Positions 26,935-31,703 of a stretch of DNA of 32,197 nt are shown here, in pieces. This DNA is from Mariprofundaceae bacterium (lineage in GTDB: Bacteria; Pseudomonadota; Zetaproteobacteria; Mariprofundales; Mariprofundaceae): NCBI GenBank assembly GCA_015488375.1, contig WFNX01000067.1, positions 1-32,197 on the forward strand, written 5' to 3'. Under the pieces are notes generated by a model, which was not told where the DNA came from, did not search any database, and saw nothing but the letters and a program-made list of their open reading frames with translations. The translations under genes and the position numbers were made by a program. How positions within the stretch are numbered: the stretch's first letter is position 1; each line of letters opens with the position of its first letter.

Positions 26935-26956
26935 TACAGCTCGCTTCAAGACTGCA

Positions 26957-26990
26957 AACACCCGCGCATTGTCGCGGGTGTTTTTGTTTT
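26957..26990 (+). terminator. Rho-independent terminator of ppiD
   Basis: ACACCCGCG (26958-26966) pairs with CGCGGGTGT (26973-26981) around a 6-nt loop, and TTTTTGTTTT follows. It begins 23 nt after the ppiD stop and separates ppiD from the riboswitch leader. Confidence 0.93.
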
Positions 26991-27028
26991 ACTTGTCTGC
27001 AGCCACCCAATCCATAGGCTTCGCGCAA

Positions 27029-27217
27029 CATTTCAGGTGCCCGGGTGATGTGATGTCGCAGGGTGAAACGGGAAGTCCGGTGCGGATGCAAGTCCAAGGC
27101 CGGCGCAGCCCCCGCTACTGTAATCCTGACAAATTCGTTTGCAGGCCACTGGAGGTGTTTTCCGGGAAGGCAAGGGCGAAGGCGGAAGAGGGAGAGCCAG
27201 GAGACCGGCCTGAAATG
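27029..27217 (+). ncRNA. Cobalamin (AdoCbl-type) riboswitch aptamer
   Basis: The leader has the conserved features of the B12 aptamer in order: AGGTGCC at 27035, the GGGAA...CCGGTG core at 27070-27082, GCCGGCGCAGCCCCCGCTAC near 27100, ACTGTAAT, and the B12 box AGCCAGGAGACCGGCC at 27195-27210. A nine-base-pair closing P1 stem can be drawn between CATTTCAGG (27029-27037) and CCTGAAATG (27209-27217), which sets the boundaries. It should bind cobalamin and lower expression of the downstream uptake operon. Confidence 0.96.
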
Positions 27218-27249
27218 GTTACGATATGCGTTCGGGGTGCGACGAAACA

Positions 27250-27327
27250 GCAGGTGCTTTTTACCTGCGTTCCCTGGCCCCGTTGCATAACGTTCACAAT
27301 AAAACGATGCACGGCGGGTGCAGGAGG
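27250..27327 (+). promoter_or_regulatory. Candidate expression platform of the B12 riboswitch
   Basis: GCAGGT (27250-27255) can pair with ACCTGC (27263-27268). The same CCTGCGTTC (27264-27272) can instead pair with GGGTGCAGG (27316-27324), which overlaps the btuB ribosome-binding site AGGAGG (27322-27327). The two pairings exclude each other, as expected for a translational switch. A third small hairpin, TGCAC/GTGCA (27308-27322), also borders the site. No terminator with a T-run is seen between aptamer and btuB, favouring control of translation. Confidence 0.5.
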
Positions 27328-27334
27328 ATATGCA

Positions 27335-29260
27335 ATGAAATACAGACAGACAATGTGGGCGGTTCTGGCCTGCATGGCGTGTGCCGTTCAGGCGCAGGCA
27401 GACGATATCGGCACAATGATTGTCACCGATGACAAGGCGCCTTCAAAAGCGGCAACATCAGCTCATAGTGTGACCGTGATTGATCGGGAGATGATCGAAC
27501 GCAGCCATGCGGCCAGCGTGGCTGAATTGTTGCGGGGCGTTGCCAATATCGTGGTTCGTGATGTTACCGGGGTGGGCGCCAAATCGCAGGTTGATCTCGG
27601 AGGCTATGGTGAGTCGGCCGCAGCCAACAGTGTGGTGTTGATTGACGGTCGAAGGGTGAATGCACCGGATTTGTCCGGAGTGGACTGGAGCCAGATTCCC
27701 GTTGACCAGATTGAACGCGTGGAAATTGTGCATGGCGGCGGCTCGGTATTGTATGGCCAGGGCGCTGTTGGCGGAGTCATCAATATCATTACGCGTGTGC
27801 CGGAGTCCGGCGGACAGGCGATGATCGAGGCCGGTAGTTTCGGGCATTATAATGCGGCCGTCCGTGCAGGCGTGGATAGCGATACAAGCCGTATGGAGAT
27901 CAATGTTTCCGGCCAGTCAACAGACGGCTATCGCAAAAACAGTTCCTTTGAACGTTTTGACGGCGGGGCGCGCGCGGAAGTTGATCTTTCCTCATCGCTG
28001 ACGGCCTCGCTGAAAGGCAATTTCCATCATGACCGGGTTGGCCTGCCGGGTTCGTTAACGGCCACCCAGGTGGCCGCCGATCCACGGCAAACCAACAACC
28101 CGAATGATTTCGCGCGTACGGATGACGGCTTTATCGACGGCGGGCTGTTATGGGATATTGCCTCCGGACTGGAGCTGAATGTCGAGGGCGGTGTGCGCCG
28201 GCGCAATGTGCATTCGGAATGGGTTTCCTTTACAGCCAATTCGGATTATCTGTTGCTCGATAAATCCATTCGCCCTTATCTGCGCTATTCGTTTGGTGAT
28301 GCGGTCCGTACTTCGGTGACGGCTGGCGCCGATATTCATGCCGGCGATGGTTCATTTGCCTTTGGCGGTGCGTTTCCTTTGCCGACAACAACGTTCAGCC
28401 GCAGTCATCAGGGATATTATGTCTATACCGATGTTCGCGATAATGGCGGACGCTGGCATCTCAATGGTGGCGTGCGCAGCGAGCGCCTGTCTGACACCTT
28501 TGTGCAGGCGACGCGTCAGCAGGTGTCGCAGAATCGTACGGTGTGGGAAATCGGTGCCTCGGTTGCGCCTGTTCGCCAGTTGCATGTACGTGCTTCGGCA
28601 TCGACATCGGTACGTTTTCCGTTGCTTGATGAACGTTTCAGCTTTTTCAGCGGTACGGTCAATACCGCGCTGGTTGCCCAGACCGGGCAGCACTGGGGCG
28701 TGGGTATGCGCTTTGGCGATGAGCGTACAAGCCTTGATGTCGGATTTAATCGCGCCGACCTGAAGCATGAGATTTTTTATAATCCGCTGGTGTTTGCCAA
28801 TGCCAATTATACGGACCCGACACGGCATGATGTCCTGATGCTGCAGGGACACTGGCGTATCACGGAGACGGCGGATGTATCGGCCAGTTATACCTATACC
28901 AGGGCCACTTTTCGAGGCGGTGCGTTTGACGGCAAGGATGTGCCGGCCGTGCCTCAGCATGCTTTTGGTGGACGTGTGAACTCGGACTGGGGCAATGGCC
29001 TTACCACGGTGCTGGATGGCAGCTATGTCGGAGCATCCTATCTGATCAGTGATCAGGGAAATGTACGTCCGAAACTTGCTGCGTATTTTCTGCTCAATGC
29101 TGCAGTGAATTATCAATGGCATGATATTGAGTTTTTCGTCCGTGGTGAAAACCTGACCAATACCAAATACAGCAGCTATGGCGTGAAAGGATTTGCCGGT
29201 GATGCGTTTTATCCTTCACCGACGATCTCCGTACGCGGCGGGATACGCTATTCATTCTGA
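27335..29260 (+). CDS. btuB: BtuB-like TonB-dependent vitamin B12 outer-membrane receptor
   Basis: The 641-residue product has a signal peptide ending VQAQA (about residue 22), a TonB-box-like DIGTMIVTDD just after it, a plug domain (AHSVTVIDREMIERSHAASV, then VLIDGRRVNAP, RVEIVHGGGSVLYGQGAVGGVINIIT) and a C-terminal 22-strand barrel. The barrel ends in ENLTNTKYSSYGVKGFAGDA... and RGGIRYSF with the terminal Phe expected for outer-membrane insertion. Substrate assignment to cobalamin rests on the riboswitch directly upstream and on btuF/C/D downstream. AGGAGG lies 7 nt before the ATG. The frame is open upstream through the riboswitch, but that part is not coding. It takes up B12 using energy from the TonB encoded next door. 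Confidence 0.93.
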   Translation: MKYRQTMWAVLACMACAVQAQADDIGTMIVTDDKAPSKAATSAHSVTVIDREMIERSHAASVAELLRGVANIVVRDVTGVGAKSQVDLGGYGESAAANSVVLIDGRRVNAPDLSGVDWSQIPVDQIERVEIVHGGGSVLYGQGAVGGVINIITRVPESGGQAMIEAGSFGHYNAAVRAGVDSDTSRMEINVSGQSTDGYRKNSSFERFDGGARAEVDLSSSLTASLKGNFHHDRVGLPGSLTATQVAADPRQTNNPNDFARTDDGFIDGGLLWDIASGLELNVEGGVRRRNVHSEWVSFTANSDYLLLDKSIRPYLRYSFGDAVRTSVTAGADIHAGDGSFAFGGAFPLPTTTFSRSHQGYYVYTDVRDNGGRWHLNGGVRSERLSDTFVQATRQQVSQNRTVWEIGASVAPVRQLHVRASASTSVRFPLLDERFSFFSGTVNTALVAQTGQHWGVGMRFGDERTSLDVGFNRADLKHEIFYNPLVFANANYTDPTRHDVLMLQGHWRITETADVSASYTYTRATFRGGAFDGKDVPAVPQHAFGGRVNSDWGNGLTTVLDGSYVGASYLISDQGNVRPKLAAYFLLNAAVNYQWHDIEFFVRGENLTNTKYSSYGVKGFAGDAFYPSPTISVRGGIRYSF

Positions 29261-29927
29261 TCGGTGGCATCTGTTGCCATGGGTGGCCGTCAGCCTGGCC
29301 ACCCATGGCATGCTGCTGTATATGTTTTACATCAGCTTCAAGGATATCCCTGTGCCTGCTCCGGCAGGGCAGGTGATGGTTGTTGCCCTGCAGGACGGTG
29401 TGTCTGTACATGCCCGCGCTCAGCCTGCCGCTGATTCTGCGCCGCAGGTGCAACAGGCTGAAACAAGCAGCATGGATGAGCATCGGCAGATGGCCGTTAC
29501 GTCGCCTGCGGTTCGTGTGCAGCGCAGACGCGAAGTGGCGGCAGCGCCGGCACAACATCAGCCTGTATCGGCGGAGCCTGCAGACCGAGGCAATATCAGG
29601 ACGCAGGGCATAAATGCGCAAGCCGCAAAGCAGACCGTGCCTGCCGCACAGGCCATGGCCGATCGTGAACAGCGGTTGTTGCGGATACGGCGGCATCTTG
29701 AACATTTCAAATATTATCCGGCAAGTGCACGGCGGCGCGGCATTGAAGGTCGGGTGGAAGTGGCGTTTGATCTGGATGCCCGGGGGATGGCAAGCCGTTT
29801 GCAACTGTTATCCCGTTCCGGCTACCGCATTCTGGATCGAGCTGCTCTGGAAACCGTGCGGCGCGCCAGTCCTTTTCCGGCCCGCGGCGGGCATTATCGT
29901 TTTCAACTGGTGTTCAGGCAGTCATGA
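29202..29927 (+). CDS. tonB: TonB family energy transducer dedicated to the B12 operon
   Basis: The product has one transmembrane anchor (WVAVSLATHGMLLYMFYISF, about residues 27-46), a Gln/Ala/Arg-rich periplasmic spacer, and a C-terminal TonB domain (LRRHLE-type RIRRHLEHFKYYPASARRRG, then IEGRVEVAFDLDARG, DRAALETVRRASPFP). It lacks the long Pro-Glu/Pro-Lys repeat of E. coli TonB. The start is uncertain. The ATG at 29202 overlaps btuB by 59 nt and has AAAGGA upstream; GTG 29199, TTG 29193, and later TTG 29274 or GTG 29283 (just before the anchor) are alternatives. The stop overlaps the btuF start (ATGA). No exbB or exbD is in view, so it must share them with another system. Confidence 0.88.
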   Translation: MRFILHRRSPYAAGYAIHSDRWHLLPWVAVSLATHGMLLYMFYISFKDIPVPAPAGQVMVVALQDGVSVHARAQPAADSAPQVQQAETSSMDEHRQMAVTSPAVRVQRRREVAAAPAQHQPVSAEPADRGNIRTQGINAQAAKQTVPAAQAMADREQRLLRIRRHLEHFKYYPASARRRGIEGRVEVAFDLDARGMASRLQLLSRSGYRILDRAALETVRRASPFPARGGHYRFQLVFRQS

Positions 29928-30730
29928 GGGCATGGCTTCTGGGCATCCTGTTGCTGACGGCCGTCCCCGTACAGGCGGCGGACAGGGTGCTGGCACTGGC
30001 ACCGCATGTATGCGAAATGCTTTATGCCATTGATGCGGGTGCAGCAGTGGCCGGTGTTGTTGATTATTGTGATTTCCCTGCCGCAGTTCAGCGCAAACCG
30101 CATGTGGGCAATTATCGTCGTATCAATGTGGAAGCCGCCTTGCGTTTGCATCCGCAAGTCGCCGTAGTGCTTAGTCGCCAGATTCCGGGGGTGACGAGAC
30201 TGGAGCATATGGGCGTTCGTATCGTGACCTCGGACCCGCGCAGTTTCGAAGAGATTTTTCATGATCTGCTGATGCTGGGAGAGCTGACGAATCACCGTCG
30301 GCAGGCTGAGGCGCTGGTGCAGCAGCAGCGCATGCGTCTGCAGCAAATCCGGCAGCAGGCCGCCGATAATGTGCGGGTGTTTTATGAATTGTGGCCGGAC
30401 CCTCTGATGACGGCGGGTGGCAAAAGCTTTATCCATTCATTAATTGAGCTCGGTGGAGGGCATAATGTGTTTGGCGACATCGCACTGGAGTCGCCGCATG
30501 TAAATGTTGAAGCCGTGCTGCGCGCTGAACCCGAGTTGATCATTATTCCGCTGGAGCGCCGGCGACTGACTGATCGAAAGCGCTTCTGGCAGCACTGGCT
30601 TGGTCCATCGGTGCGTTTTGCCGCCATTGACCCGGATTTACTGCATCGGCCGGGGCCGCGACTGATTGAAGGGCTGGAACAGTTGCAGCAGGCATTGCTT
30701 GCTGTCCGCTCAGCGAAGGAGTTGAAATAG
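29924..30730 (+). CDS. btuF: Periplasmic cobalamin-binding protein BtuF
   Basis: The 268-residue product has a signal peptide (MRAWLLGILLLTAVPVQA) and a class III substrate-binding fold of the BtuF/FepB family. RVLALAPHVCEMLYAIDAGA and GVVDYCDFPAAVQRKPHVG match the N-lobe. NVEAALRLHPQVAVV marks the first domain's end, and SLIELGGGHNVFGDIA and VNVEAVLRAEPELIII mark the second lobe. It would hand cobalamin from the periplasm to BtuC. It starts in the tonB stop (ATGA), and btuC follows. Confidence 0.92.
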   Translation: MRAWLLGILLLTAVPVQAADRVLALAPHVCEMLYAIDAGAAVAGVVDYCDFPAAVQRKPHVGNYRRINVEAALRLHPQVAVVLSRQIPGVTRLEHMGVRIVTSDPRSFEEIFHDLLMLGELTNHRRQAEALVQQQRMRLQQIRQQAADNVRVFYELWPDPLMTAGGKSFIHSLIELGGGHNVFGDIALESPHVNVEAVLRAEPELIIIPLERRRLTDRKRFWQHWLGPSVRFAAIDPDLLHRPGPRLIEGLEQLQQALLAVRSAKELK

Positions 30731-30776
30731 TGTGCCGGTATTGCCGGGTGGCATATCAGGTCGGGAGCCGGCCGGC

Positions 30777-31703
30777 ATGATGCGCGGGTTGTTGTTGACG
30801 CTGGGGTGCGCGCTGGTGCTGTGGTTGTCGCTGGGCATGGGTGAACACTGGCTGAATCCGCTGACGGCCGAGGGGCAGGATGCCCTGATTTTATGGCAGT
30901 TGCGGGCGCCGCGGCTGATACTGGCCTTTGCGGTTGGCGGACTGCTGGCGCTGGCCGGTGCCTGGTTTCAGGTGTTGCTGGGAAATCCGCTGGCCGAACC
31001 TTACGTGCTGGGGGTGGCCGGCAGTGCTTCGGCCGGTGCCGTGGCCGGGCTTATGGGCTGGCCGGATTCGGCGCTGGTCATGTCGATCGGTGCCTTTGTC
31101 GGGGCATGGCTGGGCATTGCCTGCGTCATGTTTTTTGCCCATTTGGGGCCCAACCGGATGCTGCTGGCCGGTGTGGTACTGGCCGCATTCTGGGCGGCTG
31201 TGCTGGCGTTATTGCTGGCCCTGTTGCCTGAGCAGGGGCTGTTTCGTGCCTTTGCCTGGATGATGGGCGATCTTGGCCAGTCCGATATGCCGTTGCCTTT
31301 ACTGCTGGCGGCATGGTTACTGGCTCTGGCGTGCGGGCTGTTGTTATCCCGTTCGCTGGATATGTTATTGCTGGGTGAACGTCATGCCGAGGCCCTGGGC
31401 GTGAATGTACATCGCTTGCGCCGGCAATTGTTGCTGCTGGCCTCGGCGGTGACGGCGCTGGCGGTGACGGCTGCCGGTACCATCGGTTTTATCGGGCTGG
31501 TGATTCCGCATTTGATGCGTCTGCTGTTTGGTTCCCTGCACCGACTGGTATTGCCGGCCTCGGCCGTGGGCGGGGGACTGTTGCTGATGCTGGCCGATGC
31601 TGCGGCCCGCAGCCTCATTGCCCCGGCCGAGTTGCCGGTCGGTGTGTTGACGGCGATGATCGGTGTGCCGGTTTTCCTGCTGCTATTGCTGAGGCGGTCA
31701 TAA
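30777..31703 (+). CDS. btuC: Cobalamin ABC transporter permease BtuC
   Basis: The 308-residue FecCD-family permease has about ten hydrophobic helices and the family motif RAPRLILAFAVGGLLALAGA followed by FQVLLGNPLAEPYVLGVAGSASAGA. The cytoplasmic coupling region LGERHAEALGVNVHRLRRQ contacts the ATPase. GTIGFIGLVIPHLMRLLFG and the C-terminal GELPVGVLTA-like AELPVGVLTAMIGVPVFLLLL are also typical. I prefer the ATG at 30777 (GGGAG upstream, next to a basic residue and helix 1) to the GTG at 30732, which abuts the btuF stop. Its stop overlaps the btuD start (TAATG). Confidence 0.93.
   Translation: MMRGLLLTLGCALVLWLSLGMGEHWLNPLTAEGQDALILWQLRAPRLILAFAVGGLLALAGAWFQVLLGNPLAEPYVLGVAGSASAGAVAGLMGWPDSALVMSIGAFVGAWLGIACVMFFAHLGPNRMLLAGVVLAAFWAAVLALLLALLPEQGLFRAFAWMMGDLGQSDMPLPLLLAAWLLALACGLLLSRSLDMLLLGERHAEALGVNVHRLRRQLLLLASAVTALAVTAAGTIGFIGLVIPHLMRLLFGSLHRLVLPASAVGGGLLLMLADAAARSLIAPAELPVGVLTAMIGVPVFLLLLLRRS

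Follow-up and report, generated by a model that had tools for sequence, protein, structure and literature searches.

The window, as we call the whole stretch of 32,197 nucleotides analysed here, belongs to contig WFNX01000067.1 of a Mariprofundaceae bacterium (GCA_015488375.1), in an assembly of 1.78 Mb and 157 contigs that is 86.8% complete. It carries a cobalamin riboswitch aptamer and the genes that follow it:

27018-27227, + strand: cobalamin riboswitch aptamer (RF00174), upstream of btuB, full-length model match
27335-29260, + strand: btuB, TonB-dependent receptor of 641 aa, ATG at 27335 (Pfam PF07715, PF00593)
29193-29927, + strand: tonB (Pfam PF03544)
29924-30730, + strand: btuF-like gene (Pfam PF01497)
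30732-31703, + strand: btuC-like gene (Pfam PF01032)

The RF00174 match reached 118.8 bits against a gathering score of 31.5 and covered model positions 1-189, and the sequence and structure of the aptamer, including the B12 box, are conserved. Judging from sequence, btuB, tonB and the btuF-like and btuC-like genes form a putative B12 uptake operon; tonB sits within the btuB-btuF-btuC cluster, which suggests a dedicated energiser for B12 uptake. The btuB gene was 90% identical to that of a Mariprofundaceae MAG record over the 3' part of the gene, which is all that this record includes, and the btuB leaders of the three other genomes of the window's genus were found to be strongly diverged. Downstream of the aptamer no terminator-like site was found on the + strand, which bears out the statement of an earlier note on this DNA that the leader lacks an intrinsic terminator; the sole such site on this strand lies upstream of the aptamer, at 26956-26983. 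The minimum free energy z-score of the single leader was uninformative (z -0.07).

The following parts were located in the aptamer and in the leader downstream of it:

27109-27114, + strand: L5, the kissing loop of the aptamer, CCCCCG, from its position in the Rfam alignment
27225-27238, + strand: 5' strand of the antisequestor, predicted to form 6+6 bp with 27277-27289 in the ON state and overlapping P13a
27229-27244, + strand: P13 (P13a), CGTT-C-GGGGT-G-(C)-GACG, placed by hand from the sequence
27250-27268, + strand: constitutive hairpin GCAGGT-GCTTTTT-ACCTGC, enclosed by the antisequestor
27269-27329, + strand: sequestor, predicted to bury the Shine-Dalgarno (SD) sequence in the OFF state
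27277-27289, + strand: switch strand GCCCCGTTGCATA, predicted to pair back to the P13a region (ON) or forward to 27307-27318 (OFF)
27308-27322, + strand: P13b, TGCAC-GGCGG-GTGCA, the SD-proximal hairpin, an element present in 48 leaders
27322-27327, + strand: SD sequence AGGAGG, 7 nt before the ATG at 27335

The L5 core GCNGCCCCCGC is common to 64 of the 72 riboswitches of the class that were compared, and in the window CCCCG of L5 (27110-27114) is complementary to CGGGG of L13 (27233-27237), a predicted kissing contact. P13a itself is weak, with five pairs and a bulge. The antisequestor consists of the helices 27225-27230 with 27284-27289 and 27233-27238 with 27277-27282, and had a probability of 0.98 for all transcript ends from 27292, that is before the SD sequence exists, to 27322. 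At transcript end 27322 the SD-proximal hairpin had a probability of 0.93, and forcing this hairpin left the SD sequence almost open (0.7 kcal/mol). Kissing contacts lie outside what ViennaRNA can model, and ligand binding with kissing was therefore mimicked by forcing P13. With P13a so forced, the sequestor (27269-27288 with 27307-27329) had a computed probability of 0.87-0.91; in this fold strand 27269-27276 joins the switch strand, with outer helices 27269-27272 with 27326-27329 and 27273-27276 with 27321-27324, and inner helices 27279-27283 with 27314-27318, 27284-27288 with 27307-27311 and 27291-27294 with 27303-27306. The full-length free state was near balance (ON 0.40-0.52, OFF 0.37-0.53), and thus any model built on these folds leans on co-transcriptional folding.

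The earlier note had placed the switch elsewhere in the same leader, proposing that CCTGCGTTC (27264-27272) pairs either backwards with GCAGGT (27250-27255) or forwards with GGGTGCAGG (27316-27324), and thereby controls translation. The letters and coordinates are correct and either pairing can be drawn from the sequence. The backward helix is indeed a perfect 6-bp stem, but the hairpin that it forms (27250-27268) came out at a probability of about 1.0 whether P13 was free or forced, and for all tested transcripts long enough to contain it. Since it is predicted in the free as well as the P13-locked state, it does not serve as an arm of an exclusive pair. The forward helix, nominally of 9 bp with three G-U pairs, stayed at a probability of 0.00 whatever the state or transcript length tested, and its formation would disrupt the conserved hairpin 27308-27322. 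Moreover, 94% of dinucleotide shuffles hold an 11-mer that pairs equally well with the SD region. The 6-bp hairpin together with an overlapping forward match was rarer (24 of 2000 shuffles), a rarity that stems from the hairpin, as the forward match alone is common. The toggle as drawn is therefore not the predicted behaviour of this RNA, and we regard it as extremely improbable. What stands is the kind of mechanism, translational control by one strand with two exclusive pairings of which one reaches the ribosome-binding site, whereas the named strand and partners do not: the switching strand would be 27277-27289, about 10 nt downstream, and its upstream partner the P13 region 27225-27238 in place of GCAGGT. 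The proposal was thus partly supported: it names the proper kind of mechanism but puts it at the wrong site. It had also missed the L5-L13 kissing hairpin, through which ligand binding would bear on the choice of partner, and the conserved SD-proximal hairpin.

Related leaders were collected by an RF00174 search of 78 genomes of the class Mariprofundia (Zetaproteobacteria), from which 71 stretches were taken. Forty-eight leaders, nearly all of receptor genes, share a 13-nt element, GCRCGGYGGGYGC, a short distance upstream of the SD sequence. A motif search located P13 in 46 of these 48, that of the window being hand-placed, and its stems are variable yet paired across leaders. Energy tests were done on 46 leaders from 11 genera, the window included, in which P13 lies at a usable distance; for SD access the sequence separating P13 from the element was shuffled. 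Forcing P13 raised the SD opening energy by 3.0 kcal/mol on average over the 46 leaders, compared with 0.3 in the shuffled ones, and 41 of the 46 exceeded their own shuffled mean (mean z 3.9). For the window alone the rise was 3.3 as against 0.4, with 11 of 300 shuffles as high, while little or no effect was computed for the leaders of genomes G001, G020, G043, G049, G050 and G051. The same measure showed no effect on E. coli btuB, a proven switch that had been intended as positive control; it is therefore no general detector, and a null result would not disprove a switch. The positive SD-access result stands on the shuffles.

Partner matching was assessed by pairing each strand with its own and with other leaders' strands after removal of row and column means. 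The native combination of P13 region and switch strand was better by 3.5 kcal/mol (z -7.3, 10 of 11 genera), and that of the switch strand with the region from SD to AUG was likewise better (z -3.5, 9 of 11 genera), compared with z -1.9 for the control combination of P13 with SD to AUG. With one leader per genus the median z was -3.0 (median p 0.000) for P13 with the switch strand and -2.3 (median p 0.013) for the switch strand with SD; both matchings also hold without the window, whose own native sequestor ranked first and native antisequestor second among 46 when set against foreign strands. This matching is covariation-type evidence for partners other than those of the earlier note, whose forward helix fails the refutation test that the note itself had set, since the matching in relatives lies elsewhere, and the P13 and antisequestor folds, mutually exclusive as modelled, are backed by the related leaders. 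In effect, the clade presents the same switch in some 46 natural forms whose sequences have drifted while partner matching has been kept, which lets comparison reveal the strands that exchange. How the bound state of corrinoid riboswitches favours alternative structures of the expression platform was, according to PMC10653944, not known.

The leader is thus best read, with a probability of roughly three in four, as a cobalamin riboswitch that acts on translation and represses btuB by strand exchange. Without cobalamin, the P13 region 27225-27238 would capture the switch strand 27277-27289 immediately upon its transcription, the SD-proximal hairpin 27308-27322 would next fold on its own, and the SD sequence would stay free for BtuB to be made. 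With cobalamin bound, L5 of the aptamer would kiss L13 and hold P13, and the released switch strand would pair forward across 27303-27329, burying the SD sequence and turning translation off. Sequences, Rfam and Pfam matches, comparative matching and energies are what was observed or computed; from these we infer the identity and binding of the ligand, the kissing contact, the repression and the co-transcriptional timing. A ligand-stabilised P13a might instead affect the SD sequence sterically alone, with no strand exchange, and P13 does adjoin the SD sequence in leaders L126, L128, L131 and L149; however, about 78 nt separate the end of P13a from the SD sequence in the window and the strand-exchange matching is strong, which makes such direct occlusion very unlikely here. 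Strand exchange is a mechanism of ordinary riboswitch type, unusually well supported by comparison.

P13b is the one conserved part outside this textbook scheme. Its consensus TGCRC-GGYGG-GYGCA is near-invariant directly before the SD sequence in the 48 leaders, and the loop GGYGG varies only in its C/T centre, while the surroundings vary. At the R-Y stem position 20 leaders have A-U and 28 have G-C, with no mismatch in any, and both forms coexist inside genera g7 and g11; the outer pair varies (T-A, T-G, C-G), and some leaders have it open. Among the 15 distinct sequences, two-sided changes were counted in nine cells (reached in 13 of 500 shuffles) and the covariation score was 0.291 (26 of 500 as high), support that is modest because the element barely varies. 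It showed no special match to its own switch strand (z -1.0), and leader base pairing thus fails to explain its conservation. Other accounts of the element were tried and set aside. Pairing with an upstream strand, an ACCGC-like string seen in many leaders, was no better than with shuffled or foreign strands, and against a coding function (MRGGR/MHGGC), 12 leaders have the ATG of the element in frame, 13 have it out of frame and 23 lack it. As for a general RNA motif, the element matches examined outside B12 leaders were chance hits in coding sequence or fell in a riboswitch truncated by a contig end: the two most conspicuous extra matches lay in alcohol-dehydrogenase-like and bioF-like coding sequences, and a third was the truncated riboswitch. 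The element or a variant of it (GCGCGGGTGGGCGC) was also seen after B12 riboswitches preceding short outer-membrane-like or unassigned genes (L045, L054, L081), and is thus not strictly confined to TonB-dependent receptors.

Two readings of P13b were weighed. The loop sequence CGGYGGG resembles CGGWGGG, which many of the same leaders have as L13 in P13a, and in the window CGGCGGG (27312-27318) can pair with CCCCCG of L5 if C27315 is bulged. Together with the hairpins of three further leaders (L126, L127 and L128), this resemblance and complementarity suggest that the element could act as another L13, and P13b as a second kissing hairpin for L5. As an extension of the strand-exchange switch, which it would not exclude, the leader could then work in two stages: when cobalamin arrives late and P13a is already trapped in the antisequestor, P13b would dock with L5 and block the adjacent SD sequence. 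This would account for a loop that is invariant in 48 leaders and has no special match to the switch strand, and is consistent with the confinement of the element, apart from the examined matches in coding sequence, to B12 riboswitch leaders, with leaders of other Proteobacteria (L126, L128) in which a CGGTGGG hairpin directly before the SD sequence is the only P13, and with the recurrence of tandem hairpins before a receptor gene in another family (L127). On the other hand, L5 never varies among these leaders, which puts the P13b-L5 contact beyond testing by covariation; the cbiA-type leaders of the class have the same L5 and lack P13b; the sequestor unfolds P13b in the P13-locked fold; and one further leader, of genome G040, has the loop GACGG, a poorer match to L5. 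We therefore hold the two-stage scheme only tentatively. The second reading takes P13b as a local insulator hairpin of the ON state that guards the SD sequence and the strand before it, without contact to L5. Its high probability at transcript end 27322 and the almost open SD sequence when it is forced agree with this, but an insulator requires the stem alone and leaves the invariant GGYGG loop across many genera unexplained, so that this reading too is a tentative one.

Put more generally, it is conceivable, though somewhat doubtful, that two L13-type hairpins compete for a single L5 in Mariprofundales btuB leaders, one early and distant from the SD sequence, the other late and touching it. 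If so, the SD-distant hairpin would drive strand exchange during RNA synthesis, and the SD-touching one would allow a finished mRNA still to be shut off by cobalamin arriving later. P13b thereby raises the question whether one aptamer loop with two kissing partners could let a single sensor act both early and late.

Several variants were seen among the relatives. The window's genome has another, short RF00174 match (G000:C96:359-497, L109), which like matches in relatives (L105-L108, L110) precedes an open frame of about 860-980 aa that by eye resembles an ATP-cone ribonucleotide reductase; these riboswitches have a different L5 and no SD-proximal hairpin. The same holds for one receptor-gene leader (L041, genome G005, genus g2), which has an apparent intrinsic terminator (CCCCGAATCG...CGGTCCGGGG-TTTTTTTT) and reads as a transcriptional version within the clade, possibly acquired. 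In genus g11, five leaders (L074, L076, L091, L095, L098) have P1 and P13 set apart by insertions of about 75-125 nt while the remaining platform is kept, and three of the insertions share AAGCGGAGCATAC...GTATGTGAGCATTTGAGCAG, in one copy per genome.

Among known systems, E. coli btuB, for which experiments established L5-L13 kissing and translational exchange between anti-SD and anti-anti-SD pairings (PMC11162775), is like the switch predicted for the window in gene, kissing contact and translational strand exchange, and differs in the letters of L5 and L13 and in that its leader sequence as read has no P13b-type hairpin directly before the SD sequence. The corrinoid riboswitch of Priestia megaterium metE follows, by experiment, the same logic of P13-strand exchange, part of the 3' side of P13 pairing with a strand that otherwise forms a repressive stem (PMC10653944); it controls transcription by a terminator, which the window lacks. 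No second kissing loop in cobalamin riboswitches was found in the literature searched, which included only a minority of subscription papers. In env8HyCbl a kissing hairpin is tied to the ribosome-binding site and the kissing pairs include a mismatch and a bulge (PMC10653944), features akin to those predicted for the window. The env8HyCbl riboswitch has a single P13 and, unlike the window, an aptamer of the hydroxocobalamin type. The closest likeness to P13b was seen in the other Proteobacteria: L128 has a hairpin, TGCACGGTGGGTGCA, that is one loop base off that of the window and stands shortly before AAGGA, and in L126 a P13 with CGGTGGG abuts the SD sequence. In both, however, this only P13 comes right after P1, whereas in Mariprofundales the SD-proximal hairpin is a second one, about 85 nt downstream of the first.
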